From: a virus
Length of the DNA: 42,525 nt
Virus record (IMG/VR): IMGVR_UViG_3300024518_002195
Coordinates: 1-42,525 of that record
Strand: one strand, 5' to 3'
Made by a program: the position numbers and the translations under genes. Below, one piece after another: positions 866 to 38,045 of this stretch. Position 1 is the first letter of the stretch, and each line of letters opens with the position of its first letter. The notes below the pieces were generated by a model. It was given only the letters and a program-made list of their open reading frames with translations. It was not told the origin of the DNA and made no database searches.

Positions 866-1780
866 TTATTTGATTTTTTTATCTTCGTCAACACGTTTAA
901 AGGGTTGAGTACCTTGATATAGATCGTCCCAGAAACGACCACAGTATTGATACTCGCCGACATGAGTAATGTAATCTTTAATATAAATATGTACTTTTCC
1001 ACCCATATCACTCCATCGTTGACAGAACCCAAAGTCTTCACCGTAATATCTTTTAGTCTTAGGATCATGCAATGTATCAAAAAGATTATAAGTATGGGGA
1101 GTTTTAACTTCTTCTCCATTAATAATTGTAGGTTGGAACACCTCTAATTCAGGGTAGTGTTTCATCATTTTTTCTAGTACTTCTCTTTTAATTAACATGC
1201 ATCCAGTCGGAGCATGCGTAACTTCTACTACTCCTTTCTTAGATTCAATGACTTTCTGGTTCTCTACTTTTAAAGGAAATGTAAAACCTGCTTTAGATAG
1301 GTCATCTTTATTAGTAACCGCTCTGTCTCTGTCATGGGTTCTGTTCCATATCTTGTCCCAACTAATAGTCTTCATGGGGTAAGGACATGCAATAAGATCC
1401 AAGTCTTTCTCTAGCATAGAGAAAATAGTTTTACTTTGAAAGTCTATATCTGAATCTATAAATAATAGATGAGTATATTTATCTGCGTGGTTTAACATTT
1501 CAGCTACACATAGATTTCTTCCCTGTGTAACTAAAGAAGATTTCATTAGAGTAAAACTAACTAACATCTTTTTCAAGAGACATTCTTGTTGAAATTTTAA
1601 AACTGCTTGGCAGTAGTGCATACTCACATCACTATGAACTGGAGTACAGACCATTACTTTATAAGGAGATTGACCCCCTATATTAATAGTAGTTACTGCG
1701 CCACTAGAGTTAGTATTGTTTTGTTTGATGGTTTGATAAGTATCCTCATTAAACCATATAGGCTCATTGGGCTTTCGCAC
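866..1780 (-). CDS. GT-A fold glycosyltransferase (GT2-like)
   Basis: Probable nucleotide-sugar-dependent glycosyltransferase of 304 residues. A beta-strand-like start (KVMVCTPVHSD, 41-51) is followed by a DxD-type metal/nucleotide-sugar motif in LLFIDSDID (105-113), a C-terminal YYGEDFGFCQRW (245-256) that matches the acceptor-side ED motif of GT-A enzymes, and a late His (H273) that could complete metal binding. No signal peptide or membrane segment is visible, so it should act in the cytoplasm. Its start overlaps the end of the upstream GT4 gene by 17 bases, so the two are translationally coupled. The acceptor is unknown; virion proteins, host envelope and DNA are all possible. Confidence 0.8.
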   Translation of the reverse strand: MRKPNEPIWFNEDTYQTIKQNNTNSSGAVTTINIGGQSPYKVMVCTPVHSDVSMHYCQAVLKFQQECLLKKMLVSFTLMKSSLVTQGRNLCVAEMLNHADKYTHLLFIDSDIDFQSKTIFSMLEKDLDLIACPYPMKTISWDKIWNRTHDRDRAVTNKDDLSKAGFTFPLKVENQKVIESKKGVVEVTHAPTGCMLIKREVLEKMMKHYPELEVFQPTIINGEEVKTPHTYNLFDTLHDPKTKRYYGEDFGFCQRWSDMGGKVHIYIKDYITHVGEYQYCGRFWDDLYQGTQPFKRVDEDKKIK

Positions 1781-2732
1781 TTATTGCTCCTTCTAAAAAT
1801 TTAGTCCACGTAGTACCTATCTTGCCCCATCCATAATAGATGTTAGCATAATGAGATTGTGATTCTAAATGATTTAAAACTTCATTTTCATGTAATTTAT
1901 TTGCTGTTTGTTCTATAGCAAAAGCAAACTTTTGAGCCATCACCCTATGATCATTTTCGTATGGAACATACAAAGGAAACTCGGCTCCTGTTTCATATAA
2001 CGCACCGAAGTCATTAACTATACAAAATATACCTGCGGCCATACATTCTAATAAAGAGATACAAAAAGTTTCTTCAAAGATAGATGGATATACATACATT
2101 TGATATTGTTCTAAATTGTCTTTAATATGTTCATTGGGTTGATAACCTATGTAATTAACATTAGGTAATTTTGTAGCCTGCAAATATAACTCTTGGTAAT
2201 CTTTATCTGTTTCATTAAAAAAGTGTTCTCCATAAACCCTTGTAGAAGAATACACATCTAAAGTTATTAAAGGATTCTTAACCAACTGCATGGCTCCCAA
2301 TAGAACTGAGAGTCCTCTCCAGGGTGTGTTATGATGAATTATTTTAATGGCTTGACCTTTTTTATATGCAGGTGCTCTTTGGATACCACTGATTCCATTC
2401 TTAATAACCACACATCTATGCGTGGGTATATCAAATTTTTTTCTAAACTGTTCATAGTTCCAATGACTATTGAAAACATACCAGTCATATTTATGGTGAT
2501 TACTTTTATCACTAAACCAGGGATTTAAATTAGGTTGGTCCCATGAATTTTTCTGCCATAGAATATTAACTTTATCCTTATGCAAAGGAACTCGTTCAGG
2601 CACAGATGTACAAATCTGTACTTCTTCCAATAATTTAAAATCTACATTTCTTTTTAAATAATCGAGCTGTAGTTCTGTTCCACCTCTAGGTGATTTTGGT
2701 CTTAACGGATCACTTTGATTTGTTATCTTCAT
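1764..2732 (-). CDS. GT4-family (GT-B fold) glycosyltransferase
   Basis: Retaining glycosyltransferase of 322 residues. The donor-binding half carries the EX7E signature (E221 and E229 in FEETFCISLLECMAAG) typical of family GT4, preceded by VYPSIF. KNGI (111-114) and the HHNTPWRG segment (133-140) fit the GT-B interdomain region. The N-terminal domain is short, and GGTE at 17-20 matches the N-terminal glycine-rich donor loop. The start overlaps the end of the small upstream gene by 23 bases. Together with the downstream GT-A enzyme it forms a two-gene sugar-transfer pair in the late operon. Confidence 0.85.
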   Translation of the reverse strand: MKITNQSDPLRPKSPRGGTELQLDYLKRNVDFKLLEEVQICTSVPERVPLHKDKVNILWQKNSWDQPNLNPWFSDKSNHHKYDWYVFNSHWNYEQFRKKFDIPTHRCVVIKNGISGIQRAPAYKKGQAIKIIHHNTPWRGLSVLLGAMQLVKNPLITLDVYSSTRVYGEHFFNETDKDYQELYLQATKLPNVNYIGYQPNEHIKDNLEQYQMYVYPSIFEETFCISLLECMAAGIFCIVNDFGALYETGAEFPLYVPYENDHRVMAQKFAFAIEQTANKLHENEVLNHLESQSHYANIYYGWGKIGTTWTKFLEGAISAKAQ

Positions 2733-3393: not shown

Positions 3394-4583
3394 TACGATA
3401 TCAATGAGTATGCCGATGCTGGTAAAGAAAGAGGTGTTCCTTTCTTCTCTTGATTTTGTTTATCCAGTTTCATTAACTGTTGTACATTCTCTAAACCGAA
3501 ACCAGTTTGGTTATAAGAATTGAATGCGTTCTTTAATTTTTTATCTAGGATACTACCCTCTGTAAAAGCTAATTGGCCTTCTAGCTCCTCTGTGTCTTGT
3601 AGATTACTTTGGTTGTTTCCTATCCCGTAAATTATACTTTGATCCGGATTTATATTATATTTTTTATCAAACCATTGTTTTCCTTTTTGCATACCCCAAG
3701 GTAGAAGTCCCATTGGACCCTGATCCTTAAATAACTTTATTAGACTCAGGGCGTTTTTACCTTTGTCAAATGTTTCAATTACATCAGAAATATCTAGGGT
3801 TGGACCTTGACCTTGATTATTTCCTCCACCCACATTTCCTGCGTGTAAATTTCCAGATGTAGTTGAGCCATGATGGAGAGCGCCTAGTCCTCTTGCTTGA
3901 GCTGCTCCCGGCGACATACCTAGTCCTTGGTCTTGATCTTGATGAGGATTACCTTGAGCATAACCTAATCTCATTATTCCACCTTGTGCCATAGGATCTC
4001 CAGCAGTTGCTATAGATTCTTTACTTCCTGGATGCTGATAGCCTACTCCCGTATTATTTCCTTGATTGCCTTGAGCAATTTTTGAAATGTTTGCTTTCTT
4101 AGTTTTCATTGCATCACTATAATGATCTATGTCTCCATATTTCTTCATCCACTTCTGTGCCATCTCTTGTGGAGTCGTAGAACCAAATGCAGAACTTCCT
4201 GGTGCATTCATTCCTTGGAATGGTCCGCTTGTCATTTGATATGGATTGTTTTGTGCAAATGATATGTTACCACCACCTACACCATAATTTTGTAAAAACT
4301 TTGTATTGGCATCAATATCAGCTTGGCTTAAATTCCCTGCATTGCCTTGCATAAATCTCATAAATTTTTCTAAAGGATTTTCTTCCTCCACCTCTTCTTC
4401 ATTTACTCTATAAACAGGGCCATCATCAACAGGGCGAATAGAATCTCCTTGAGCATAACCTAGTCTAGTAATTCCACCTGTATTAGATTCGATTCTACTT
4501 CCATAAGTATCGGTCCAATCACGAGCTATCTCTGGCTCGTTGGCCCATAAATATCTTCTTTGTTTTTCTGACTGAAATGGCAT
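3393..4583 (-). CDS. Gly/Gln-rich protein with repeated RLGYAQG motif
   Basis: Product of 396 residues, function unknown. The N-terminus (MPFQSEKQRRYLWANEPEIA) is a compact basic/aromatic segment. It is followed by a long low-complexity region rich in Gly, Asn and Gln. The motif GGI-(T/M)-RLGYAQG occurs twice (about residues 36-45 and 206-215). The C-terminal quarter is more ordered and helical. An in-frame ATG further upstream would lie inside the preceding gene; ATG 4583 forms a TAATG junction with that gene and was chosen. Probably an internal or tail-associated virion protein, judged from position only. Confidence 0.65.
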   Translation of the reverse strand: MPFQSEKQRRYLWANEPEIARDWTDTYGSRIESNTGGITRLGYAQGDSIRPVDDGPVYRVNEEEVEEENPLEKFMRFMQGNAGNLSQADIDANTKFLQNYGVGGGNISFAQNNPYQMTSGPFQGMNAPGSSAFGSTTPQEMAQKWMKKYGDIDHYSDAMKTKKANISKIAQGNQGNNTGVGYQHPGSKESIATAGDPMAQGGIMRLGYAQGNPHQDQDQGLGMSPGAAQARGLGALHHGSTTSGNLHAGNVGGGNNQGQGPTLDISDVIETFDKGKNALSLIKLFKDQGPMGLLPWGMQKGKQWFDKKYNINPDQSIIYGIGNNQSNLQDTEELEGQLAFTEGSILDKKLKNAFNSYNQTGFGLENVQQLMKLDKQNQEKKGTPLSLPASAYSLIS

Positions 4584-6541
4584 TATCTTCTTCCGTCCGC
4601 TTGTGCGTCTAATCTTAATGTTCCATATCGCCAAGTTTCACCTGTGGCGTCGTTAGCAATATTGATTGAAACCAATCTTCCTCTGGCTCTAGTATTTACT
4701 TTAGCAGTAGAAGAGGTAACTGTAAAGGGACCTAATGAAGAACTTACAGCTGTGTCATCAGGGTAAGAACTTACATATAAAGTCATCTTCGCATTTCCAG
4801 ATAAGTATTTAAAATCAGGGATAATTCGACTGACGGACATAAAGTATTCTCCATCTCCTCTAAAGTCTACGACCCCTGTGGGTGTTCCCATCATACTTTT
4901 TTTAGAAGTAATATCATAATCACCAGACCTAATGAAGGCATTAATAGAAGTAGTGCCTGAACTATTGACCTGATCAGTACCTGTTTCTTGTGCATAGTAC
5001 ATGCTGGATCCCGCCAAAGCTGTCGCTCCATAAATAGGATAGGTAGGAGTAGCTGTAGCATCATATTCTGTAGCATGTGGAAGATTGAAAATGGTAGCAT
5101 CAATGTAACTTGTTCTAGCTAATGAGGAAACAGTCCATATATTCTCTCCATAATTATAAGTAACGGATCTATCAATTTGTGTAGAGCCAGATTTTGGATA
5201 GAACCAGTTTATCTCAGTGAACAAACTATTGTGACTTGCAGCTACTATTAAATTGGAATCATAATTAATTCCTAAATTAGTTCCAGTGCTCTCAAATACA
5301 AAATCTTCTACTAAACAATCAATTGTTTTAACAGTACCATCATATCTATAAAATCCTCCAGCGTCTCCCATCCAATAGACTGCTCCGTCGGCTGCGATAG
5401 CTGCATTGGGTCCGATGCATCCGCAATTAGTTCCAACTTGTCTAAGACTAAATGTGTATGGTGGACCTACATATTGAGTTACATAAGCTGCTGTATCTGT
5501 TAAAATTAAAACATAGTCCTTACCGGCTATTGCGGCTCTGATTGTGTTACCAGAATCTAGTCGGAAGGTTCCAGCTGTATTAGTAGCTGTGGGTAAATAA
5601 GTATTTAAATCTTCTTGATTAGAAAATCTTACAAACATAGGGTCTTGAGTTGCGGGTGTACCAATAGTAGTCTCAGTTCCTAAGTGAAATAAATGTCTGT
5701 CTCTATCTGACACTAAGGTCATAAGAGAGGCTGTCGGATTATTCGACGTTAAATAACTTGTTGTAGCTGTAGAAGCTCTAATGGTTCTAGCATTAGCAGC
5801 GCCTGCGTTCCATGTGAAAGTTTTACCATTACGAATGGTAGCAATTAATACTTGTCCATAGTTGTCTAGGCTCCAGAGGCCTGGATCTAGAACTACATCA
5901 CTTGTTGTACGTTCCGTACCCCAAGTAGAATCACCCCATAGATAGGTACCCCAGCCATAACCATAAGTTTGAAAAGTAGGTCCTACAGTTTCGTAGGGAA
6001 GAATGCTTGCTGAACCGGTCCCTGTGGTAGTTCCACCAGATACCGTTGGCATTTCAATAGCGAATGTATTAGTAGCAATGGCAGATATTTCAAAGCCATT
6101 ATCACTAAAATCAGTGGTCGCCCATCCAGAACCTGTCGGGACGGTAACTGTTTCAAAAGTTATATAATCTCCAGCGGATAAACCGTGAGAAGTTTTATTA
6201 ACAGTCACAGTTGCACTCCCTGAAGAAGCTGTGAAAGTAGCTGAAGTTAAAGCTGTTTTTAAAGGGGTAATATCAAATACTTGGTCCGCGTAATACACGA
6301 ACAAGACTTTATTAGTTCCAATAGCTACATATTTTTCACCAGCTAAGCTTGTGAATGCGTGTTGAGATCTAGCGACTCCCGGTAATGTATAAGTGGGGTT
6401 AGTTAATTGTTGCCATCCACCTATTTTCTCAGGTAATCCATATCTAAATCTAATAAAATCTCCGTCTACCCACTGACCTTCAGCGCCAGACTCGGTGGCT
6501 TGTTTATTAAATCCTGGTACAAATTTTAGTTTCTGTAGCAT
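4583..6541 (-). CDS. Tail nozzle/propeller-type structural protein
   Basis: Large structural protein of 652 residues. The start (MLQKLKFVPGFNKQ, then DGDFIRFRYGLPEKIGGWQQ) resembles podoviral tail-hub proteins that begin with a 'binding-site then frame' segment before a repeated beta-propeller-like body. The body contains recurring short blades such as VAIGTNKVLFVYY and VLILTDTAAYVTQY, and is rich in Thr, Ser and Tyr. P22 gp10 and T7 gp12 do this job at the portal-tail interface; the equivalence here is inferred. The 35-base gap before it (6542-6576) is the only break with the oxygenase cassette upstream, so the cassette sits inside the tail operon. Confidence 0.7.
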   Translation of the reverse strand: MLQKLKFVPGFNKQATESGAEGQWVDGDFIRFRYGLPEKIGGWQQLTNPTYTLPGVARSQHAFTSLAGEKYVAIGTNKVLFVYYADQVFDITPLKTALTSATFTASSGSATVTVNKTSHGLSAGDYITFETVTVPTGSGWATTDFSDNGFEISAIATNTFAIEMPTVSGGTTTGTGSASILPYETVGPTFQTYGYGWGTYLWGDSTWGTERTTSDVVLDPGLWSLDNYGQVLIATIRNGKTFTWNAGAANARTIRASTATTSYLTSNNPTASLMTLVSDRDRHLFHLGTETTIGTPATQDPMFVRFSNQEDLNTYLPTATNTAGTFRLDSGNTIRAAIAGKDYVLILTDTAAYVTQYVGPPYTFSLRQVGTNCGCIGPNAAIAADGAVYWMGDAGGFYRYDGTVKTIDCLVEDFVFESTGTNLGINYDSNLIVAASHNSLFTEINWFYPKSGSTQIDRSVTYNYGENIWTVSSLARTSYIDATIFNLPHATEYDATATPTYPIYGATALAGSSMYYAQETGTDQVNSSGTTSINAFIRSGDYDITSKKSMMGTPTGVVDFRGDGEYFMSVSRIIPDFKYLSGNAKMTLYVSSYPDDTAVSSSLGPFTVTSSTAKVNTRARGRLVSINIANDATGETWRYGTLRLDAQADGRR

Positions 6542-6575
6542 AATTTCTCACTATATAGGCTATTTTTTAAATAGT

Positions 6576-7094
6576 CTAGACGTAGTTTATATTGATTAAA
6601 AACCGAGCTTTTGCATCGGTGCAGGTGCTCCCTGAATGCTCTATTGTCGCCGGAAAACTTAACATCCGGTTCTCTTTATTTACCACACTTTCCCCAATGC
6701 CAACAGCTTTTTCTCCTGTTTTTAAAAAAGTCTCAGCATTAGTAGTATTTAAAAAGAATATATTAGTTGTTATTCCCTCAGGCTTTTTTACATCCGTATG
6801 AAAAGGAAACGATAATTTTTCTGGAGTATATGGATTGCAATTGGCCTTAACCTTAACTAATGTTTTTACATTTAATTTATCAAAGATGGGTTGTAAGAGT
6901 TTAATTAAATAACTCATCTCTTTCCCATCCTTATAGAAGATATGAGTAAATTGATAGTAATCTAATCTAGACTGTTCATAAGCATCATTATTAACCTTAA
7001 ATGAATTATAGTACCAGGGAAAAGTATTACTCATCATAACCTGTTGAAGTTTTAAAAGCTCATCCTCTGGAAGAAAATTATCTCTAAGTTTCAT
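6576..7094 (-). CDS. 2OG-Fe(II) oxygenase-like protein
   Basis: Putative 2-oxoglutarate- and Fe(II)-dependent dioxygenase of 172 residues. The double-stranded beta-helix signature is complete: FHTD gives the HxD pair (H99, D101), IEHSG gives the distal His (H153), and R164 in AKARFLI is placed to bind the 2OG carboxylate. NRMLSFPA is the usual strand before the distal His. The start at 7094 makes a TGATG junction with the upstream oxygenase; a longer reading from 7121 would enter that gene. It is the last gene of the cassette. Substrate unknown. Confidence 0.8.
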   Translation of the reverse strand: MKLRDNFLPEDELLKLQQVMMSNTFPWYYNSFKVNNDAYEQSRLDYYQFTHIFYKDGKEMSYLIKLLQPIFDKLNVKTLVKVKANCNPYTPEKLSFPFHTDVKKPEGITTNIFFLNTTNAETFLKTGEKAVGIGESVVNKENRMLSFPATIEHSGSTCTDAKARFLININYV

Positions 7095-7642
7095 CAATAT
7101 GCCCACGAGACAAAAGTACAACGTGTGCCCTTTGTTATCTCATTAACATGATGAGGATACACAAAAGAAGAAGGAAATAATAAAATATCTCCTTGCTCCA
7201 TCTTGAAAGTATGCGGGCCGAGACAGAATTCTCCTCCTTCATAGTCATTATTTAAAGCGCCCACTATAGATAAAATAGGAATGCCCCTGTCTACCCCATC
7301 AAAGATATCATGGATATGATCGAAGTGTCTCCTCATCATACTGCCAGTAGGATATCTATTAAATCTTATTGGATTTATTTTATGAATAATTTTTTGTTTA
7401 AGCTTATCTTGATACTCATCTAAAGCCTGAATAACAAAAGGAGATAACTGATCGTGGAATTCTTTGTCTGCAGGAACCACTTCTAATTCTTTGGAATCAT
7501 GCGATCCAGTATTTCCACTGACAGTATTATACCAGGTATGGGTAGTCCACTTAAAATCAGGAAATGCATTCATGATTCTTACACATAAACCTTCCGGTAT
7601 CAGTTTCTCTTTATATATAAAGTCTTCTAGTCTAGGTATCAA
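7094..7642 (-). CDS. Prolyl-4-hydroxylase-type 2OG-Fe(II) oxygenase
   Basis: This is the clearest prolyl-hydroxylase-like member of the cassette, 182 residues. It has HFDH with the HxD pair at H106 and D108, then YEGGEFCLG, the strand GDILLFPSS, the distal His in YPHHVNEI (H164 or H165), and TKGTRCTFVSW, where K171 is expected to bind 2OG. This order is standard for P4H domains that hydroxylate proline or related residues in peptides. The protein is about the length of a bare catalytic domain. It overlaps the upstream gene by 11 bases. Confidence 0.88.
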   Translation of the reverse strand: MIPRLEDFIYKEKLIPEGLCVRIMNAFPDFKWTTHTWYNTVSGNTGSHDSKELEVVPADKEFHDQLSPFVIQALDEYQDKLKQKIIHKINPIRFNRYPTGSMMRRHFDHIHDIFDGVDRGIPILSIVGALNNDYEGGEFCLGPHTFKMEQGDILLFPSSFVYPHHVNEITKGTRCTFVSWAY

Positions 7643-8270
7643 TGGGCTGATCCGAATCTAAAGATATATTCCCAGCTACAGTAATTCTATCTTTAGTAGA
7701 AGTATAAAAAGGATATACCGTATGTTTTAAAGCTGCAGGAAAGAATAACATTCTTCCTTCTGCCTCCTTATCTAAATGATAATAATGAGGATTAAGACGT
7801 CCCAACATATCCATATAATAAAAAGAAAAAGACGAGGCTAAACGATTATTAGAATCCTTTATAAAAGGAAGCTCGTGCTCTTTTCTAAAGTCTGTAGGTA
7901 TCTTCATAAATACCACAAAGGAAAAAACCCCTTTATGATCATGCACTGGATTAAACTCATATCGTTTTTGAAAATTACACCATAATCTTTCTAAAATGTA
8001 GTTATGATTCTTAGTTAAAATAGAAGGGACAACAGTATGAGGAGAGAATGCTTTTTGATATTCTAGAATAGCTGGACCTAGAGTAGAGTTAAAAAACCAG
8101 TCATCTTTATCCGGCATTAAATGGGAACGAGTGATGTTACCAGCTAACTCTTTATTATATCTCTTTTTCTGAGCTGTAGCGATATAACCATTTAAACCTT
8201 TGATGACATTGTCCTCGAGTTGTATTTCTAACCAACCAGAATTAGGGGGAGATACTTTTTTATATTTCAT
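7632..8270 (-). CDS. 2OG-Fe(II) oxygenase-like protein
   Basis: Product of 212 residues with the cupin-like oxygenase layout. NPVHDHKG supplies the proximal ligands (H110 with D111 or H112), LFFPAALKHTVYPF supplies the distal His (H183), and DRITVAGNIS has the 2OG-binding Arg (R195). A 30-residue insertion between the two ligand motifs contains an Arg- and Tyr-rich stretch. The HxH spacing differs from the classical HxD, so the metal geometry may be unusual. It overlaps both neighbours by 11 bases. Confidence 0.75.
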   Translation of the reverse strand: MKYKKVSPPNSGWLEIQLEDNVIKGLNGYIATAQKKRYNKELAGNITRSHLMPDKDDWFFNSTLGPAILEYQKAFSPHTVVPSILTKNHNYILERLWCNFQKRYEFNPVHDHKGVFSFVVFMKIPTDFRKEHELPFIKDSNNRLASSFSFYYMDMLGRLNPHYYHLDKEAEGRMLFFPAALKHTVYPFYTSTKDRITVAGNISLDSDQPIDT

Positions 8271-8796
8271 AGTTCCAAAAGTTAGAGTTAAAAGAAATAA
8301 CGATTTTAGTTTTAACCCCCATGTTAATAGGAGACTGATGAATAATATTTCCAGGGAAGGTTAATACTTGTCCCTCTTCCATTGGAATAGCATAGGTCTG
8401 ATTAAGAATGGGATCGTATAATTGAGTTTCTGTTTGTGGTCCTCCGTCTTGTATGTAATAAACATTAGCCCAACTACTCTCTGGGTGTACGTGCCAGCTA
8501 TGATAATCTCCTGGTTCATATTTTTGAAACCAACCATTGGTTATATTCCATTGAGTTAGTTTTAATTTTTTAGATATGGCATCCATATGAGGGGGAACTA
8601 ATTTATAAAAATAATCTAAATATTTTCTTTTAGCTTTTTTAGATACTTTCCAATCTGATTGACTAATTAGTTCCTCAGAATTTTGACGGACAGGGGCGTT
8701 CATCTCTTCTATATACTTAAGTATTTTTTTATTATGTTTTTTATAATCCTTTATTGCGGATAAAAACATATAGGTTTGTATGGCCTTATGTTTCAT
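8260..8796 (-). CDS. 2OG-Fe(II) oxygenase, TIGR02466/2OG-FeII_Oxy_5-like
   Basis: Product of 178 residues. The core WHVHPESSWANVYYI contains the HxHP ligand motif (H102, H104) that I associate with the family of putative 2OG-Fe(II) oxygenases named TIGR02466 (Pfam 2OG-FeII_Oxy_5). QVLTFPGNIIHQSP gives the distal His (H153). The basic residue that should bind 2OG is Lys (K162 or K164) instead of the usual Arg. The N-terminal 80 residues are helical and lysine-rich. It starts in an ATGA overlap with the gene before it. Confidence 0.78.
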   Translation of the reverse strand: MKHKAIQTYMFLSAIKDYKKHNKKILKYIEEMNAPVRQNSEELISQSDWKVSKKAKRKYLDYFYKLVPPHMDAISKKLKLTQWNITNGWFQKYEPGDYHSWHVHPESSWANVYYIQDGGPQTETQLYDPILNQTYAIPMEEGQVLTFPGNIIHQSPINMGVKTKIVISFNSNFWNYEI

Positions 8797-9413
8797 ATTA
8801 CTAAATGAGTCTTTCTAAAATCCGTTCCAAGAGAGCCTCTCATAAAAGTATTGAAGGATAGGGATACTCGTTCCTGTTTAGACTTATTAGGTTCTACAGA
8901 ATGAGGTAAATAAGAAGGAAAGAATAAAGCAGAATACTGAGGAGGCTCTATGCTAAAGTCACTACAGTTCATCATATCTATTTCTTTAAATTCGTATTCA
9001 ATGCCGCCTGTAAGAGCCTGGGGTTTATCAAAAAATATCTTAGGGTTGTTATCTGTAATATAATATGTCCCTGAAAATAAACTATTGGCGTGCCAGTGTC
9101 GATGATGAAAACTACCTGGTGGGTTATAATTAAACCAGCTTTGAGTAATTACAAATTTAGTGTGGTCTTTTATCTTTAATAATTCATGAGTATAGCTATT
9201 CAACATCCCCTGCATAGCTTGTTTCATCTTAACCAATTCTTTAGACTCTAAGGCATAGCCATTGAGAGAACTATAATTATTACCTGTATTAGGACGTCTC
9301 TTTAACTCATGTATAAACTTTAGTTCTTTTTTAGTAGGTATATAAATTTTATTTGCCTGTAGAACAGGGGTTGGAAATAATGGATAAACTCCATTATCTT
9401 TAGGGTCTCTCAT
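8793..9413 (-). CDS. 2OG-Fe(II) oxygenase, TIGR02466/2OG-FeII_Oxy_5-like
   Basis: Product of 206 residues and the best match in the cassette to the TIGR02466 pattern: SWFNYNPPGSFHHRHWH (H106, H108), then LFSGTYYI, then ALFFPSYLPHSVEPN with distal His H171, and ERVSLSFNTF with Arg R182. This motif order is common in putative oxygenases of marine T4-like and other phages. The start overlaps the stop of the halogenase-like gene as TAATG; the end overlaps the next gene by 4 bases. Confidence 0.82.
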   Translation of the reverse strand: MRDPKDNGVYPLFPTPVLQANKIYIPTKKELKFIHELKRRPNTGNNYSSLNGYALESKELVKMKQAMQGMLNSYTHELLKIKDHTKFVITQSWFNYNPPGSFHHRHWHANSLFSGTYYITDNNPKIFFDKPQALTGGIEYEFKEIDMMNCSDFSIEPPQYSALFFPSYLPHSVEPNKSKQERVSLSFNTFMRGSLGTDFRKTHLVI

Positions 9414-10900
9414 TAATATATTGTCCTTTCAGTGTTCTTTAGGTTTTTGGTATGAATTAATTTAAGCATTTCTTTATGAGATATTCTTAAACAGCTCTCC
9501 TCCCAGTCTTTCGTCTTCTTTAATTCCTTACTTATCCAAACCCTTTGACCGTAGGAGTATAATCTTGCCTCCTCTTCATAGCGTGCTTTGGTATATAAGT
9601 CTAGTCCTGCAATTAAATTAATGAAAGAAAGAGGTCCAAACATCTTTAACCGATGAGTAAAATCCCTGTCTCTAGGTAATCTAACTTGCCAACGAGGTAA
9701 CATTTCTTTTAAAAAATCTGTTTGTTTTATTTCTTTTTTCCAAAAAGGTTCTTTTCTTTGAGTAAGGTAATGCATTTGAACATAAGATAAAATATTGTCC
9801 ATTAAATCATTGTAGTCTTCATTAACAGATTTCTTATCTTTGCTGGGCAATGCATTAATAAGACAATTAGTTTGTAATAAACTAAGCATTACATTTAAAC
9901 CTTCTAGGGGTTCTAGCAAAGAACTACTTTGACCTATCAGTATTATATTACCATTCCACATCTTATCAAAACAACCTACAGGATATTTATTGGACTTAAC
10001 TTTGTATTCAATTGGATGTTTATATATTTTCTCTAATACCTTATGGATATCAGGTCCATTCTTAGATTGTAATTCATAATTATGAGTAATACCGTTTGCC
10101 GTTCTACCATACAAAGGAGCACGCCACAGGTAACCAATATCTAACGCCTTATAAAAAGTAAATAAATTATATTCTTCCATTGCAGGGGTTTCAAAATAAA
10201 TATGACTTGAAGCTGGAGTATGTGCTTCCCAACTCTTCCATTTAAAATCTATAAAAGAAGATAGAAGCCTACGTGGACCAGTATTATCAATCCACCAGTC
10301 AGACGTATAATAATTTCCATCTGTGCCATGTAGTCTTTTAATTTGCTGATGATTATCTAATTCTACTCGTGTGTATATAGCTTTATCAATGTATACTCCA
10401 TTCAGTTCACAAATTTCCAACAGATAGTCTCTAAACTTAGCTGTATCAAATGTATAAGACATGGGGAAATTATCTTGTATCAATGGAATATCTCCATCAT
10501 AAAAATGATTAGGAGCTAACCATTTATTTTTAAGTTGTTTCCAACCTAAGATATATCCCTGGAAACAATGGTATTCATTATGGGAATAGAATAAAGGATA
10601 AGAACCTAAGTGATTTGGAAAATCTATTTTACCGAACCCACTGTAATATGAGCCAGCAGTATAAGTAGCATCTGTCTTGATCATGAAGTCATGCTCATTG
10701 AGATTAAGTCTATTTAAAAATTGTTCTTTAAACATGTAACCGGAACTTTGAGATGGAGTACGACATTCCCAATCCTCAAACCCATGTATCACTTTAATCA
10801 GCTTAGTAGGAAAATTGTGCTTCAATAATAAAGCAGTCATTAACCCATCTATTTCAGTTCCTACAATAGTTATTATATCTGTATCATCGTCTGTTCTCAT
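9413..10900 (-). CDS. Tryptophan-halogenase-family flavoprotein lacking the catalytic lysine
   Basis: FAD-dependent protein of 495 residues, full length for the flavin-dependent tryptophan halogenase family. Matches to PrnA recalled from memory: IGQSSSLLEPLE (322-333) against IGLSSCFLEPLE, with the catalytic Glu kept at E333; GYLWRAPL (256-263) against the WxWxIP motif; WIDNTGPRRLL (203-213); and YVQMHYLTQRKEPFW (373-387). Differences: the N-terminal FAD loop is VGTEIDG instead of GGGTAG; the GVGEAT segment is not visible; and the residue matching the PrnA catalytic Lys79 is Thr81 (TDATYTAG). Halogenation is therefore doubtful; FAD-dependent oxidation or a reductase-coupled role is possible. 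ATG 10900 was chosen because it overlaps the preceding TAA. Confidence 0.85.
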   Translation of the reverse strand: MRTDDDTDIITIVGTEIDGLMTALLLKHNFPTKLIKVIHGFEDWECRTPSQSSGYMFKEQFLNRLNLNEHDFMIKTDATYTAGSYYSGFGKIDFPNHLGSYPLFYSHNEYHCFQGYILGWKQLKNKWLAPNHFYDGDIPLIQDNFPMSYTFDTAKFRDYLLEICELNGVYIDKAIYTRVELDNHQQIKRLHGTDGNYYTSDWWIDNTGPRRLLSSFIDFKWKSWEAHTPASSHIYFETPAMEEYNLFTFYKALDIGYLWRAPLYGRTANGITHNYELQSKNGPDIHKVLEKIYKHPIEYKVKSNKYPVGCFDKMWNGNIILIGQSSSLLEPLEGLNVMLSLLQTNCLINALPSKDKKSVNEDYNDLMDNILSYVQMHYLTQRKEPFWKKEIKQTDFLKEMLPRWQVRLPRDRDFTHRLKMFGPLSFINLIAGLDLYTKARYEEEARLYSYGQRVWISKELKKTKDWEESCLRISHKEMLKLIHTKNLKNTERTIY

Positions 10901-11622
10901 TAGTATGATGCCTTCCAACTCCCTAAGTTACTAACCCTATTTTTTTCAGGGATAGGAAATGAACCCGCTTTAATTTCGGAAAAGAAAAAAGTTTGTATTA
11001 TTCTATTTTTCTTTATTGAACCATATCCATTGGACGCATGAAAGTGAGATGAGTCAAATACAATAGCTCTGTTTGGAATAAAAGGTACTTCTAAAATTAA
11101 ATCATAAGAAGAATTATGTTCGGCTAACATTTTATTATACAACTTAGGATCAACTTTTTCTCCACCATATAGTTTTTCTTTTATATCCATATGGTGAAAG
11201 GTGTCTGGAGCGGGTGATTTTTTAAATTTAAAAAAGCTTGTTCCTTCATCTTGATCTCCTTGAATATAAAATAGACAACTTAACATATTGTCATCATCTG
11301 AATGGACAAAGCCATGCTTATCATATTCATTTCCATAGGGAACGATCTTTTCAAATTTAGTTAAACACTTATAAGGGGTATCATGTATTTGAAAGCGGTT
11401 ATAGAATAGAGATAAAATTTTCTCTGTAGAGTATCTAAAATAATCTGGTTGAATTTCATGTAGGGGTTTTGTAACTGACCCAGGCATTGTATAATTTTTA
11501 TGCCATGTATTATTAAAAACATAGTGTCTTTCTTTTTGGTCATAAGGAAGACTTTTAGCTAGCTTTAATACATAATCAAAATCATCAAAAAAGTTATCTA
11601 CAATGGTAAGTGGAAAATACAT
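10900..11622 (-). CDS. 2OG-Fe(II) oxygenase-like protein, DUF6445-like
   Basis: Product of 240 residues. GFVHSDDDN carries the HxD pair (H107, D109), IVFDSSHFHASNGYG the distal His (H193 or H195), and KKNRIIQTFFF the 2OG-binding Arg (R207). The 40-residue insertion between HxD and the distal His contains DTFHHMD. Its size and motif order resemble the DUF6445 group, members of which I recall near tryptophan halogenase genes in bacteria; here too the halogenase-like gene is immediately downstream. The link is by memory of the family and not by a search. Confidence 0.78.
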   Translation of the reverse strand: MYFPLTIVDNFFDDFDYVLKLAKSLPYDQKERHYVFNNTWHKNYTMPGSVTKPLHEIQPDYFRYSTEKILSLFYNRFQIHDTPYKCLTKFEKIVPYGNEYDKHGFVHSDDDNMLSCLFYIQGDQDEGTSFFKFKKSPAPDTFHHMDIKEKLYGGEKVDPKLYNKMLAEHNSSYDLILEVPFIPNRAIVFDSSHFHASNGYGSIKKNRIIQTFFFSEIKAGSFPIPEKNRVSNLGSWKASY

Positions 11623-12212
11623 TAATAGCTATCTCCCCATGGTTTATCGAAGGACCAGTTCCACGCTAGTGTAACTCTTTTTCCAGGGATATTTACGGGA
11701 TCAACCCAGTGCTGAACATACGAAGGAAAGGTAATAACTATACCTCTTTGGGCACTTAATTGCCTCGTATAATTAGCGCTCTTATCAGTAGAATCTATAT
11801 TTATTATAGAGTCCCCAAAATATAAAACACTGGCAAAATCTGTACCTAAGTGGTCATGTCTTCTTACAAAGTCTTTCTTGGTTAGAATACTTCCCCACGA
11901 ATTAACTATGTTACATTTATACATCCTAGTTTTTTTATTCATGTCCTCATAAAACAAACTGTCTTGAGACCATCTAAAAAACATACTCTCTAAGAATAGT
12001 TTAAAATCAGGATCACTATTAAAAAAGTTAAAGGCTGTCATCTTCCCTTGAACATTAGTTAAATAATTATTATTTTTGTCAGGTTGTTTCTCAATACCTG
12101 TAATAATTTTTTTCTCTAAAGCTTTAAGCAGTTCTTCTTCATGAGCCATGTTGAGCTCCGTAATAGCCATATTCAGGGTGTAATTAATTCTAGTTACTTT
12201 CGAACGAAACAT
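11622..12212 (-). CDS. 2OG-Fe(II) oxygenase-like protein, first gene of the cassette
   Basis: Product of 196 residues. RRHDHLG supplies the proximal ligands (H119 with D120 or H121), VITFPSYVQHWVDP the distal His (H168), and GKRVTLAWNWSF the 2OG-binding Arg (R179), in the TIGR02466-like order. Its ribosome binding site (AAGGA) lies in the 3' arm of the 12211-12232 hairpin and the start codon follows directly, so translation of the first cassette gene may be controlled by RNA structure. Internal ATGs at 12170 and 12149 are possible alternative starts without a better binding site. Confidence 0.78.
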   Translation of the reverse strand: MFRSKVTRINYTLNMAITELNMAHEEELLKALEKKIITGIEKQPDKNNNYLTNVQGKMTAFNFFNSDPDFKLFLESMFFRWSQDSLFYEDMNKKTRMYKCNIVNSWGSILTKKDFVRRHDHLGTDFASVLYFGDSIINIDSTDKSANYTRQLSAQRGIVITFPSYVQHWVDPVNIPGKRVTLAWNWSFDKPWGDSY

Positions 12213-12256: not shown

Positions 12257-12646
12257 TTAAAACTGTGGGTCGGTAAGAACCCAAGATAAAGTATCTTCAT
12301 CCCAACCGTATGACTGACCATCAGTTGGATAAGGAGTAGGTGCGTCCCACTGCCATGTAGTAGTATTTAACGTGTAACTAGGCCACGCAAAAGGTGGTTC
12401 TTTTGGTTTAATAAGTTTATCGTTTGCACGATCATAAGTTCCACCAACTCCAGGTTCATTAACTCTAGAGTCTTTGTATATTATATATAAATTTGTATCA
12501 GTTGAAGGTCCGTAGATTTCTAATATACGTGCAGAACATTTAGCGTCACTTGGAGTGCCACCATCGTCTACATCAGATGATTTTAATCCTATGACGTTTA
12601 TAATGTTATCACTACCATCTAAAACTGCTATGGGTGTTGTTGCCAT
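12257..12646 (-). CDS. Tail-fibre accessory protein (WDE-type C-terminus)
   Basis: Product of 129 residues. The C-terminal half (PPFAWPSYTL, then WQWDAPTPYPTDG, then YGWDEDTLSWV) repeats a W-rich pattern found in small proteins next to phage tail fibres. No catalytic motif is visible. The start overlaps the stop of the glycine-rich adhesin-like gene as TAATG, which ties it to that protein, perhaps as a chaperone or an attached tip subunit; this is inference. It is the last structural gene before the oxygenase cassette. Confidence 0.65.
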   Translation of the reverse strand: MATTPIAVLDGSDNIINVIGLKSSDVDDGGTPSDAKCSARILEIYGPSTDTNLYIIYKDSRVNEPGVGGTYDRANDKLIKPKEPPFAWPSYTLNTTTWQWDAPTPYPTDGQSYGWDEDTLSWVLTDPQF

Positions 12647-13512
12647 TATCCCTCCGAATCAAATCTAACGATTACTATTCCACTACCGCCATTACTTCCA
12701 CTAGGAGAGTCTGCTGATCCAGCGCCGCCTCCACCTGTATTGGCTGGTGCAGGAGAAATTCCTCCACCGAATCCAGTAGAGCCTGGCATTCCACCGCCTT
12801 GGCCACCAGCTCCGCCACCACCGGTTTGGTTTCCACCACCACCGCCTCCAGCGTAATAAACTTGTGAAGCGGCTACTAATATATCGTTTTGTCTTCCTAT
12901 ACCACCAGGGCCAGGAGTTCCTCCTGCACCGCCAGCTCCGCCGCCACCGCCAGCTCTTGCCATGCTGCCGCCACCGCCGACATTTCCATAACCGATTCCG
13001 GCTCCGGAATTTGAATTTTGTGCAGTTGCTGATCCGCCTCCTCTTGCGCCTCCGCCTGAAGAGCCTCCAGCTTTTCCTTGTGGTCCTGGTCCCATTCCTG
13101 GTCCACCTGAACCTCCGCCACCACCGATAGCTGTAACTACGCCACCTGTAGGTGCTGATCCTGGAGCAGACCAAATTGATTGTCCACCATTTATGCCACC
13201 CGGACCTGAGCCACCAGTTCCAACTGTCACTGCGTAATTTGTTCCTACTCCTAATCCTGAACTTGATCCTTCTTGATATCCTCCTGCGCCACCGCCGCCG
13301 CCGTCTCCGCCGCCGTCAGCACCACCGCCTCCTCCAGAGACAGTTAAAAATTCTACGGGTAATGTTGCTACAGAACCTCCTGTAAATGCGAATTGTCCGC
13401 CTGCTAAAAAAGTGTGAATGCGATAAGTTCCGTCTTCAGTCATATTACCGCCAGTTGCTGCTGCCGGTCCTCCGCCTCCAGAACCGAATCCTAATACTTG
13501 ATATCCAAACAT
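12646..13512 (-). CDS. Glycine-rich tail adhesin-like protein
   Basis: Product of 288 residues, extremely rich in glycine with GGGG, GGPG and GPGP runs from about 50 to 280 and a short ordered N-terminus (MFGYQVLGFGSGGG, then TYRIHTFLAGGQFAF) and C-terminus (SGIVIVRFD). The composition is that of glycine-rich adhesins with stacked polyglycine II helices, such as the receptor-binding tips of some T-even-like phages, and of Pfam glycine-rich domains on fibre ends. Pro in Gly-Pro and Gly-Pro-Gly steps makes it a candidate substrate for the prolyl-hydroxylase-like enzymes encoded just downstream; that is inference. Confidence 0.75.
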   Translation of the reverse strand: MFGYQVLGFGSGGGGPAAATGGNMTEDGTYRIHTFLAGGQFAFTGGSVATLPVEFLTVSGGGGGADGGGDGGGGGAGGYQEGSSSGLGVGTNYAVTVGTGGSGPGGINGGQSIWSAPGSAPTGGVVTAIGGGGGSGGPGMGPGPQGKAGGSSGGGARGGGSATAQNSNSGAGIGYGNVGGGGSMARAGGGGGAGGAGGTPGPGGIGRQNDILVAASQVYYAGGGGGGNQTGGGGAGGQGGGMPGSTGFGGGISPAPANTGGGGAGSADSPSGSNGGSGIVIVRFDSEG

Positions 13513-14778: not shown

Positions 14779-14799
14779 AATAAGTGTCAAACACTTATT
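14779..14799 (-). terminator. Hairpin after the WG-repeat gene
   Basis: Perfect 8-bp inverted repeat (AATAAGTG / CACTTATT) with a 5-base loop immediately after the stop codon of the WG-repeat gene on the minus strand, followed by AT-rich sequence without a clean T tract. It may be a weak terminator or an RNA-processing stem between two tail genes. Confidence 0.4.
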
Positions 14800-16043
14800 T
14801 AAGCAGCGCTAGTATCGACTTCCTGCCATCCTGGCGGGTCTACCGGTGCTGTGCCGGTTGGGACTTCGTTCCAAATCAATACATTTGTAGCTGTACCAAG
14901 CGCGAATGTCAAGGTATTTCCAGTTAAATCTACCTTAGCATTTCCACTAGTATCTTCATCACCTTCTTGCATTACTAAAGCAAAACCAGTGATATCAGGG
15001 TGTGTATTGGCGTCGGCTACAACGGTGCCAAGACCCATAGCTAAACTAAATGTAAAGTTAGGATCTGCAAAATAAACACCATTACCCCATTTAGATTCAC
15101 CCCACTTACCATTGCCCCAGCCCATAGCTGTTTCAATAGTTACATTTGCATCACCGGTAATATCATAAGAACTACCTGGTGTTAAATTAGCAGCCATTGC
15201 TTGACCAATAGGATTTGCATCAGGACCAGGATCAGCTCCGCTAAAGTTTTCCTGCATCGCCATAACAAGAGTATTAACTTGTTGGTTACCATAAACACCG
15301 TAACCCCAATTAGAATTACCCCATGTAACAGCGGATGTGGCCGACACTTCGGCTATAGTAATATTGTCTGCGACTGCTGTACCTAAAGCAGCGGTCATCG
15401 CAAAACCAGTTGGACTCACATACTCAGGATCAAAACTTAGGTTCATGGTCATCGCAATACCAGTAGGTTCTGCGACAAATGATGCGTAAGCAATAGCAGC
15501 GCCAGTTGTTACTGTCGCCGTTCCTGCAGATGAAAGAGTTAAAGAACTATCTCCGTAAGTAGAAATACCTGCTCCACCTTCGGCCACCACCATCGCAATA
15601 CCAGTAACGTCTACTGCTAATAAAGATTGACCCCATGCTTCAATGCCCCAAGGATCAGAACCCCAACCAATGTTAACTTCAGCAGTTACGGAAACACTGT
15701 TAAGTGCAGTGCTCATAGCTTGACCTGTTAAGAATACATCGCCGGCAATTCCCCAAGCCACGCTTCCCCAAGTGGATCTACCCCACCCTACATTAATTTC
15801 TGTTGTGATTGTTTCTTCACTAAGAACCATTGGCAAAGAAAAGCCAGTTGGTATTTCTGTAATGTTAGAATAATAAACGCCGTAAGATAGCTCGCCCCAG
15901 GCGTATCTTCCCCATCCTGTTGTAGAAAAAGATGCGGGAGTACCTAAGTTAGCTGTTAATGCTATTCCGCTAGGAATAATTAAATTAACTTCTGTGTTCC
16001 AAGAATTGCTGCCCCACGTAAATTGACCCCAAGTGGTTGCCAT
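14799..16043 (-). CDS. WG-repeat structural protein
   Basis: Product of 414 residues built from about six modules, each with a WGxxxWG core (for example GWGRSTWGSVAWG at 86-98 and GWGSDPWGIEAWG at 126-138). Modules are joined by segments that end in a small hydrophobic strand such as PSGIALTANLG or PTGFAMTAALG. Spacing between modules is about 40 residues in the first half and longer in the second. The regular aromatic repeat suggests a fibrous or solenoid virion part. I do not know a function for it. It lies between the fibre and neck genes. Confidence 0.7.
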   Translation of the reverse strand: MATTWGQFTWGSNSWNTEVNLIIPSGIALTANLGTPASFSTTGWGRYAWGELSYGVYYSNITEIPTGFSLPMVLSEETITTEINVGWGRSTWGSVAWGIAGDVFLTGQAMSTALNSVSVTAEVNIGWGSDPWGIEAWGQSLLAVDVTGIAMVVAEGGAGISTYGDSSLTLSSAGTATVTTGAAIAYASFVAEPTGIAMTMNLSFDPEYVSPTGFAMTAALGTAVADNITIAEVSATSAVTWGNSNWGYGVYGNQQVNTLVMAMQENFSGADPGPDANPIGQAMAANLTPGSSYDITGDANVTIETAMGWGNGKWGESKWGNGVYFADPNFTFSLAMGLGTVVADANTHPDITGFALVMQEGDEDTSGNAKVDLTGNTLTFALGTATNVLIWNEVPTGTAPVDPPGWQEVDTSAA

Positions 16044-37301: not shown

Positions 37302-38045
37302 ATGGATCAACGACAATTTATAATGAAGAGAAAAGTACTTAATAAAGCCCAATGTAAGAGACTTATAGATGAGTATGAACACCGCAAAGCAGAGAAAGCA
37401 GGCGAACATTGTTATCATGCCCTTACTGGCGTAGACACAGAGTCTACATTTAATCTAGTTCACCTACTGCATGGAAGTGAGACTTTTCACATAGTACATG
37501 AGGCTATGAAAGGAATGATCGATGAATGGATGGATCATTTAAAAAAACTAAATTGTGTCTCGGTTAATATATTTGCAGATGAAGTTAACTACGCTCATAT
37601 CTATAGATTAATGTGTTATGAAAATGGTGGTAAGCTTCACCCTCATATCGATGGTCATGACTTTGTTACAGCCAGCTGTACTATTCAGTTGAATAACCAT
37701 TTTAATGGTGGACAGTTTAAATTCTTTAATGGTCAACACAAAGAAGACTTAAAAGAAGGAGAATGTTTAATCTTTCCCGCCGGTTGTTTTTGGATACATC
37801 AGGTCACACCTGTCACCAAGGGCAAGAGATATGCTGTTAATACTTTTCTCTGTTCTATACCAAATGAAAAGATGGAAAGACTTACACGAATCAAAAACTG
37901 GATTAAAGAAAAAGAAATTGAACCACATTATTTTGATGGGGACTGGGCTAGAAAATATGGCTCAGCTAAAATAAATAATCATTATGTTAAAACATTAACT
38001 CAGGAAGAAGTTAACGTACTTGGAGTGAAACATTTAAAGGTATGA
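37302..38045 (+). CDS. Prolyl-4-hydroxylase-type 2OG-Fe(II) oxygenase (eighth oxygenase)
   Basis: Product of 247 residues from ATG 37302 (ATG 37323 is an alternative; an upstream TTG frame reaches into the divergent promoter). GGKLHPHIDGHDF holds the HxD pair, FNGGQFKFFNGQ the inner strands, ECLIFPAGCFWIHQV the distal His, and TKGKRYAVNTFL the 2OG-binding Lys. This is the P4H order, closest within the window to the 7094-7642 gene. It stands alone on the plus strand next to terS, far from the cassette. The C-terminal 60 residues (RLTRIKNWIKEKEIE onward) are extra to the domain. Its end overlaps the next gene in an ATGA junction. Confidence 0.85.
   Translation: MDQRQFIMKRKVLNKAQCKRLIDEYEHRKAEKAGEHCYHALTGVDTESTFNLVHLLHGSETFHIVHEAMKGMIDEWMDHLKKLNCVSVNIFADEVNYAHIYRLMCYENGGKLHPHIDGHDFVTASCTIQLNNHFNGGQFKFFNGQHKEDLKEGECLIFPAGCFWIHQVTPVTKGKRYAVNTFLCSIPNEKMERLTRIKNWIKEKEIEPHYFDGDWARKYGSAKINNHYVKTLTQEEVNVLGVKHLKV

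Follow-up and report, generated by a model that had tools for sequence, protein, structure and literature searches.

An array of oxygenase-fold genes with a pseudo-halogenase at a variable, adhesin-linked site of a marine phage

The 42.5-kb IMG/VR virus record IMGVR_UViG_3300024518_002195 (hereafter the window, meaning the whole stretch of DNA analysed) carries on its minus strand, at positions 6576-12212 and within the structural/tail module, a gap-free cassette of eight consecutive open reading frames (ORFs), of which seven encode proteins with the fold of 2-oxoglutarate (2OG)-Fe(II) oxygenases and one, P6, encodes a member of the tryptophan halogenase family PF04820. Comparison with related phages favours regarding the site, which lies between the adhesin region and a 652-amino-acid (aa) virion protein, as a hypervariable hot-spot that holds a variable surface-tailoring locus and not a fixed pathway. 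The cassette could thus represent one state of such a locus, whose oxygenases modify a phage surface protein with P6 as a non-catalytic partner, a reading that we prefer but hold tentatively and at somewhat less than even confidence.

The cassette and its oxygenases

As originally predicted, the eight genes run in one direction inside the tail operon, and ORF calls give overlaps of 1, 11, 11, 4, 1, 1 and 1 bases between successive members from P1 to P8 when the first ATG is taken for P1 and P6 (Table 1). The closest annotated relatives of the window are the SAR11 phages HTVC027P and HTVC023P, the former with 77% nucleotide identity in pieces across 16-24 kb. The window and its HTVC027P-type relatives have in common the order adhesin region, variable interval and 652/654-aa gene, and this order, together with shared structural-gene sequence, places the window in the HTVC023P/HTVC027P type. 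Judging from these relatives, its host is probably SAR11, the ocean's commonest bacteria.

Seven adjacent 2OG-Fe(II)-type proteins with their metal ligands, and an eighth oxygenase outside the cassette (P9), had also been predicted, and Pfam or PHROG matches and conserved ligands bear this out. The iron triad is HxD...H in P1, P2, P7 and P9, and three histidines (HxH...H) replace the canonical HxD/E pattern in P3, P4, P5 and P8, throughout their viral homologues; the distal Arg/Lys position for 2OG is conserved in all eight oxygenases. From these sequence features, the cassette oxygenases may be expected to use 2OG and iron. Within the cassette, the 2OG-oxygenase matches of P2, P3, P4, P5 and P8 exceed the curated Pfam cut-offs. 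Profiles grown from each protein have hit sets that overlap one another, with 0-1 matches among reversed-sequence decoys. The ligands (HxD or HxH, distal His and Arg/Lys) are near-invariant across about 105-245 viral homologues per protein. For example, H110, H112, H183 and R195 of P3 are kept in 144/144, 144/144, 148/148 and 143/145 homologues, respectively, and the four ligands of P7 are invariant in 32 aligned homologues. Those of P1 (H108, D110, H162 and R173, numbered from the TTG at 7121) are invariant in 28 aligned homologues and kept in 91-103 of about 105 in the larger viral set.

The double-stranded beta-helix fold is assigned to P1 and P7 by AlphaFold2 (AF2) models compared with Foldseek, and to the other six oxygenases by Pfam matches above the curated cut-off; the profiles of P1 and P7 yielded nothing useful against the PDB by sequence, so that fold comparison was used instead. 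In line with what had been expected of structure prediction, both models match 2OG oxygenases of known structure: P1 (pLDDT 86) is closest to PHD2 and Pseudomonas P4H (E 6e-8) and P7 (pLDDT 85) to EvdO2, PHD2 and SnoN (E 3.5e-6 to about 1e-5). The TM-scores of these predicted models are moderate (about 0.4-0.64) and show fold class, not function. P5 matches PDB entries 3BVC and 2RG4 by sequence (E 6e-6). Since the cassette paralogues are at best 19-27% identical, they are not recent duplicates, and a recent tandem duplication of the cassette was rejected; the nearest paralogue of P9 is P2, with 24% identity. In P4, a comparison with 11081-11617 of the near relative L003 revealed 15 differing codons, with 16.5 non-synonymous against 0.5 synonymous changes, and a similar excess appears against a second near relative (L175); diversifying selection is therefore possible, at a significance uncorrected for multiple tests.

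P1 has no Pfam match and is recognised by PHROGs only, under the name 'DNA endonuclease V' (phrog_274), from which a role of the cassette in DNA repair or nucleotide modification might be read. One cyanophage does have a true Pyr_excise gene adjoining such genes. However, P4, P7 and P9 are matched by phrog_274 as well, and the cyanophage proteins in that family show weak matches to 2OG-FeII_Oxy_3; P1 itself combines the 2OG fold with invariant ligands, and the cassette is located in the tail module. The name was rejected for P1, and the role is very improbable. In phage HTVC008M (9215-12035), this name and that of 'minor coat protein' (phrog_1644) are carried by probable 2OG-fold proteins, for which both are probably wrong.

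P6, a family member without the catalytic lysine

A flavoprotein of the tryptophan halogenase family had been predicted in the cassette, and family membership stands, as P6 matches PF04820 over nearly its full length, with a score of 146 bits versus about 270-350 for the other viral members searched; a working halogenase or flavoprotein does not, since the catalytic lysine and the flavin-binding motif are lost. In a motif census of viral PF04820 members, aligned on the ATYK/ATFK position of the catalytic lysine, Lys79 is Thr in all five members of the P6 lineage (P6 and its counterparts in the near relatives L002-L005) and Lys in 148/148 other viral members. Across the lineage GxGxxG, GVGE and WxWxIP are all lost and the Glu of EPLE is retained; GxGxxG is replaced by GTEIDG or GTEIEG and, in P6, GVGE by RTPSQS and WxWxIP by YLWRAP. 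WxWxIP varies in some active halogenases too (PMC8407142). In the halogenase Thal, every substitution of the catalytic lysine abolishes halogenation, although Lys79Thr still forms the flavin hydroperoxide (PMC7948982). Because Lys79 is Thr and GxGxxG, GVGE and WxWxIP are gone, halogenation by P6 seems, from its sequence, very unlikely.

P6 is nevertheless maintained, since its comparison with the L005 counterpart (100 synonymous and 85 non-synonymous changes) gives a ratio of non-synonymous to synonymous rates (dN/dS) of 0.16, similar to its oxygenase neighbours and indicative of purifying selection; with this ratio and 501 intact codons, gene decay was rejected, and P6 is best described as a putative maintained pseudo-halogenase. 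In the tree it sits on a long branch (1.88) within a clade of 39 members, all of them viral (support 0.97); long-branch error is possible there, and with that reservation descent from Lys-less bacterial members was rejected. Related phages that carry halogenases at this site (L021, L042, L048, L055, L061, L089 at 3961-5400, L117, L230 and others) retain the lysine in them, so the most economical view is that it was lost within the P6 lineage. Among the members of bacterial PF04820 arrays, 20/166 have another residue in place of the catalytic lysine and one more is unaligned there; these losses are apparently independent of the phage case. Bacterial contigs (L257-L330, e.g., L262 at 9508-10974) repeatedly hold one Lys-less member per halogenase array, some beside TonB receptors. 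P6 is a warning against naming every PF04820 match a halogenase.

A variable site beside the tail adhesin region

Starting from the 652-aa virion protein, 80 related contigs were gathered, and the 70 loci whose sequence extends more than 3 kb upstream of that gene were analysed, oxygenases being labelled with our own profiles (E ≤ 1e-4, 0-1 decoy matches, Pfam spot checks); many of these contigs are fragmentary, and the set includes close variants of a single phage, which do not count as independent. The interval upstream of the 652-aa gene holds 1-7 oxygenases in 63/70 contigs, with differing number, mix and strand; in HTVC027P the site is occupied by three (gp72-74), which run on the opposite strand. 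Also present in sister loci are sulfotransferases, methyltransferases, a JmjC/cupin-like protein and halogenases, one or two in number and with Lys79 intact. In one related phage (L109), two sulfotransferase-family genes (1892-2680 and 6307-6921) lie in or beside the interval. Gene order, whose conservation the original prediction had proposed as a check, is kept in five near relatives only (L002-L005 and the part of L175 that its contig covers) and is variable in the remainder of about 70 related phages.

Beside a Gly-rich/phrog_7759 adhesin region all 28 arrays are co-directional and none is antisense; where such a region is lacking, 24 arrays are antisense and 10 co-directional (Fisher 1.4e-9, ignoring kinship among loci). 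Array content correlates with adhesin content once the virion protein is controlled for (partial Mantel r 0.71, p 0.002), and does so much more strongly than with the virion protein once the adhesin is controlled for (r 0.20); simple linkage does not explain this difference because both neighbours adjoin the array.

Across 80 halogenase contigs and cyanophages, an oxygenase lies at most two genes away for 108/150 halogenase genes, against 260/904 unlabelled genes. Five IMG/VR contigs (L018, L023, L031, L038 and L040) interleave four or five PF04820 genes, with halogenase motifs intact, with about ten oxygenases, mostly adjoining Gly-rich proteins; in L018 and L038, five halogenases and about nine oxygenases stand beside three Gly-rich proteins. 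Four others (L068, L073, L076 and L087) carry three consecutive halogenases, the third with an IAGES variant of GVGE, followed by antisense oxygenases, about eight of them in L068 and L073. The proximity of Gly-rich proteins to halogenase or oxygenase genes in unrelated contigs, compared with shuffled gene order, gave p 0.98 in a test without power.

Expansions of 2OG-Fe(II) oxygenases have been described both for pelagiphages of the HTVC023P type (Wittmers et al. 2022, PMC9599517) and for cyanophages (PMC3037559, PMC9602691, PMC9146016). Already known are the high number of 2OG genes in single marine phages, the co-location of these genes in HTVC023P types and the existence of viral halogenases. 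The phages of Wittmers et al. belong by sequence to the same group as the window and likewise carry many non-orthologous 2OG genes per genome; however, these are nearby although not adjacent and often accompanied by ferrochelatases, and that text mentions no halogenases, whereas the window has seven contiguous oxygenases at one adhesin-linked site together with a pseudo-halogenase. Among viral halogenases, VirX1 of cyanophage Syn10 (PDB 6QGM) is a PF04820 member that, like P6, is encoded near 2OG-oxygenase genes and a Gly_rich_2 tail-region protein, Syn10 bringing together such a protein, two halogenases and oxygenases; but VirX1 is active and has GxGxxG, Lys79 and WxWxIP, and P6, 22% identical to it, lacks all three. 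Neither contiguous arrays of seven members at a hot-spot linked to the adhesin, nor halogenase mega-arrays, nor a conserved pseudo-halogenase appear to have been described in the open-licence literature searched, where no paper was found on DUF6445, on halogenases with TonB/SapC clusters or on prolyl hydroxylases with cyanophage tails.

Outside the cassette, the Gly-rich protein at its upstream side is a candidate adhesin, a role taken from its position, and a candidate substrate. A 414-aa gene at 14799-16043 evolves fast among near relatives (dN/dS 0.4-0.5) and is another candidate tail/receptor protein.

Table 1. Genes of the cassette and other features of the window
Feature	Position	Strand	Description
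P1	6576..7094	-	2OG-Fe(II)-oxygenase fold, HxD type; ATG at 7094, alternative TTG at 7121; phrog_274 2.5e-41
P2	7094..7642	-	2OG-FeII_Oxy_3, HxD type (H106, D108, H164, R174); Pfam 9.2e-11
P3	7632..8270	-	2OG-FeII_Oxy_5, HxH type (H110, H112, H183, R195); Pfam 3.4e-9
P4	8260..8796	-	2OG-FeII_Oxy_5, HxH type (H102, H104, H153, K164); Pfam 6.9e-11
P5	8793..9413	-	2OG-FeII_Oxy_5, HxH type (H106, H108, H171, R182); Pfam 4.1e-18
P6	9413..10900	-	Trp_halogenase family (PF04820), putative pseudo-halogenase; ATG at 10900; Pfam 7.8e-43
P7	10900..11622	-	DUF6445, 2OG-oxygenase fold, HxD type (H107, D109, H195, R207); Pfam 8.7e-10
P8	11622..12212	-	2OG-FeII_Oxy_5, HxH type (H119, H121, H168, R179); Pfam 1.4e-6
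P9	37266-38045	+	Eighth oxygenase, outside the cassette; 2OG-FeII_Oxy_3, HxD type; ATG at 37302; Pfam 1.7e-11
phrog_7759 gene, 129 aa	12257..12646	-	Just upstream of the cassette; phrog_7759 1.2e-12; neighbour common to Gly-rich-type relatives (synteny)
Gly-rich tail-region protein, 40% Gly	12646..13512	-	PF21722 Gly_rich_2 1.4e-5; phrog_2295 1.5e-23
652-aa virion structural protein	4583..6541	-	phrog_3287 3e-79; downstream border of the hot-spot
Glycosyltransferase gene	1764-2732		Same module as the cassette

Proposed surface tailoring and its alternatives

In the tentative reading preferred here, a tailoring locus would be set in the tail module of HTVC027P/HTVC023P-like pelagiphages, and its seven small iron oxygenases would be produced together with the structural genes, presumably late. 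Their most likely action would be hydroxylation, or another oxidation, of residues in a surface protein of the phage, with the neighbouring Gly-rich tail protein as foremost candidate, inside the infected cell and ahead of assembly, while P6 could serve as a non-catalytic partner, for example in substrate binding or presentation; the benefit may be altered receptor binding or evasion of host resistance. In its favour, the cassette is co-directional, overlapping and located between the adhesin region and the virion protein, the site is filled with oxygenases in most related contigs and covaries with adhesin type in strand and content, the nearest folds of the P1 model are protein hydroxylases, and halogenases and oxygenases likewise occur with Gly-rich proteins in Syn10 and in other marine viral contigs. 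Action inside the cell seems likelier than action within the particle because proteomic studies of virions from two cyanophages, one with 9 and the other with 24 oxygenase genes, name no 2OG oxygenase among the detected proteins in the parts consulted (PMC9146016, PMC9602691).

Several observations weigh against this reading. Within each adhesin type the partial correlation is just 0.33 (p 0.006) and 0.18 (p 0.08), so the covariation mostly reflects the split between two adhesin types, and recombination of whole modules can produce it. Moreover, an antisense array would not have to be transcribed together with the tail genes, we infer both substrate and activity, and with HxH ligands in four oxygenases even the use of 2OG is not certain. 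The Gly-rich proteins of halogenase-bearing loci, when compared for aromatic residues, displayed no clear enrichment.

The main rival, unlikely but the most serious, is that the target of the enzymes is a component of the host envelope or a small molecule inside the infected cell, for instance in receptor masking or superinfection exclusion, with adjacency to the adhesin arising from joint selection of receptor and adhesin. The glycosyltransferase gene in the same module, the sulfotransferases and methyltransferases of sister loci and the small-molecule oxygenases EvdO2 and SnoN among the nearest folds of P7 are consistent with it, as are bacterial PF04820 arrays with DUF6445, which adjoin TonB-dependent receptors, SapC and Cupin_8. 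Such clusters (Sphingomonas, Asticcacaulis, Shewanella and others) resemble the window in placing a halogenase-family gene beside a DUF6445 gene and in often including a Lys79-less member; however, these members are not close to P6 in the tree and no Oxy_5/Oxy_3 series was found there. Against action on the host, the position of the genes among structural ones speaks for late timing, by which point masking of receptors would be less useful, and no envelope-pathway genes were found within the interval.

Two further explanations are clearly improbable, to a similar degree. The oxygenases could be metabolic auxiliary genes whose combined use of 2-oxoglutarate alters nitrogen or energy metabolism, an idea put forward for cyanophages (Sullivan 2010, PMC3037559), and marine-phage 2OG genes are indeed multicopy, up to 24 in S-SCSM1 (PMC9602691); but conserved ligands and folds across several families would be needless for bulk 2OG turnover, and the adhesin linkage and the companion sulfotransferases and halogenases would be left unexplained. 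The dedicated multi-step pathway of the original prediction, leading to one oxidised product, would suit a tight overlapping operon of seven different, non-redundant enzymes whose order is fixed in the near relatives. It is weakened, however, by the variable arrays of other relatives, where members are freely swapped, lost or inverted, a pattern more easily reconciled with interchangeable tailoring enzymes than with a pathway of fixed order; in addition, no precursor-forming or transport genes were seen, and P6 would not be competent as a halogenase.

Among the genes of ocean phages that still lack an explanation, those for 2OG oxygenases are some of the commonest, and most interpretations cast them as helpers of metabolism or as repair enzymes. 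Their concentration at a variable locus whose content goes with adhesin type, and where halogenases and sulfotransferases occur as alternates, points instead towards surface tailoring, which is testable by mass spectrometry on cultured HTVC027P. A bolder generalisation, which we consider conceivable though rather unlikely, is that marine phages maintain a hypervariable locus for post-translational modification, whose enzymes add hydroxyl, halogen, sulfate or methyl groups to the phages' own tail adhesins, and that here the halogenase became a non-catalytic partner of the oxygenases. If this were true, such a locus would diversify receptor binding by chemistry, and not by sequence alone.

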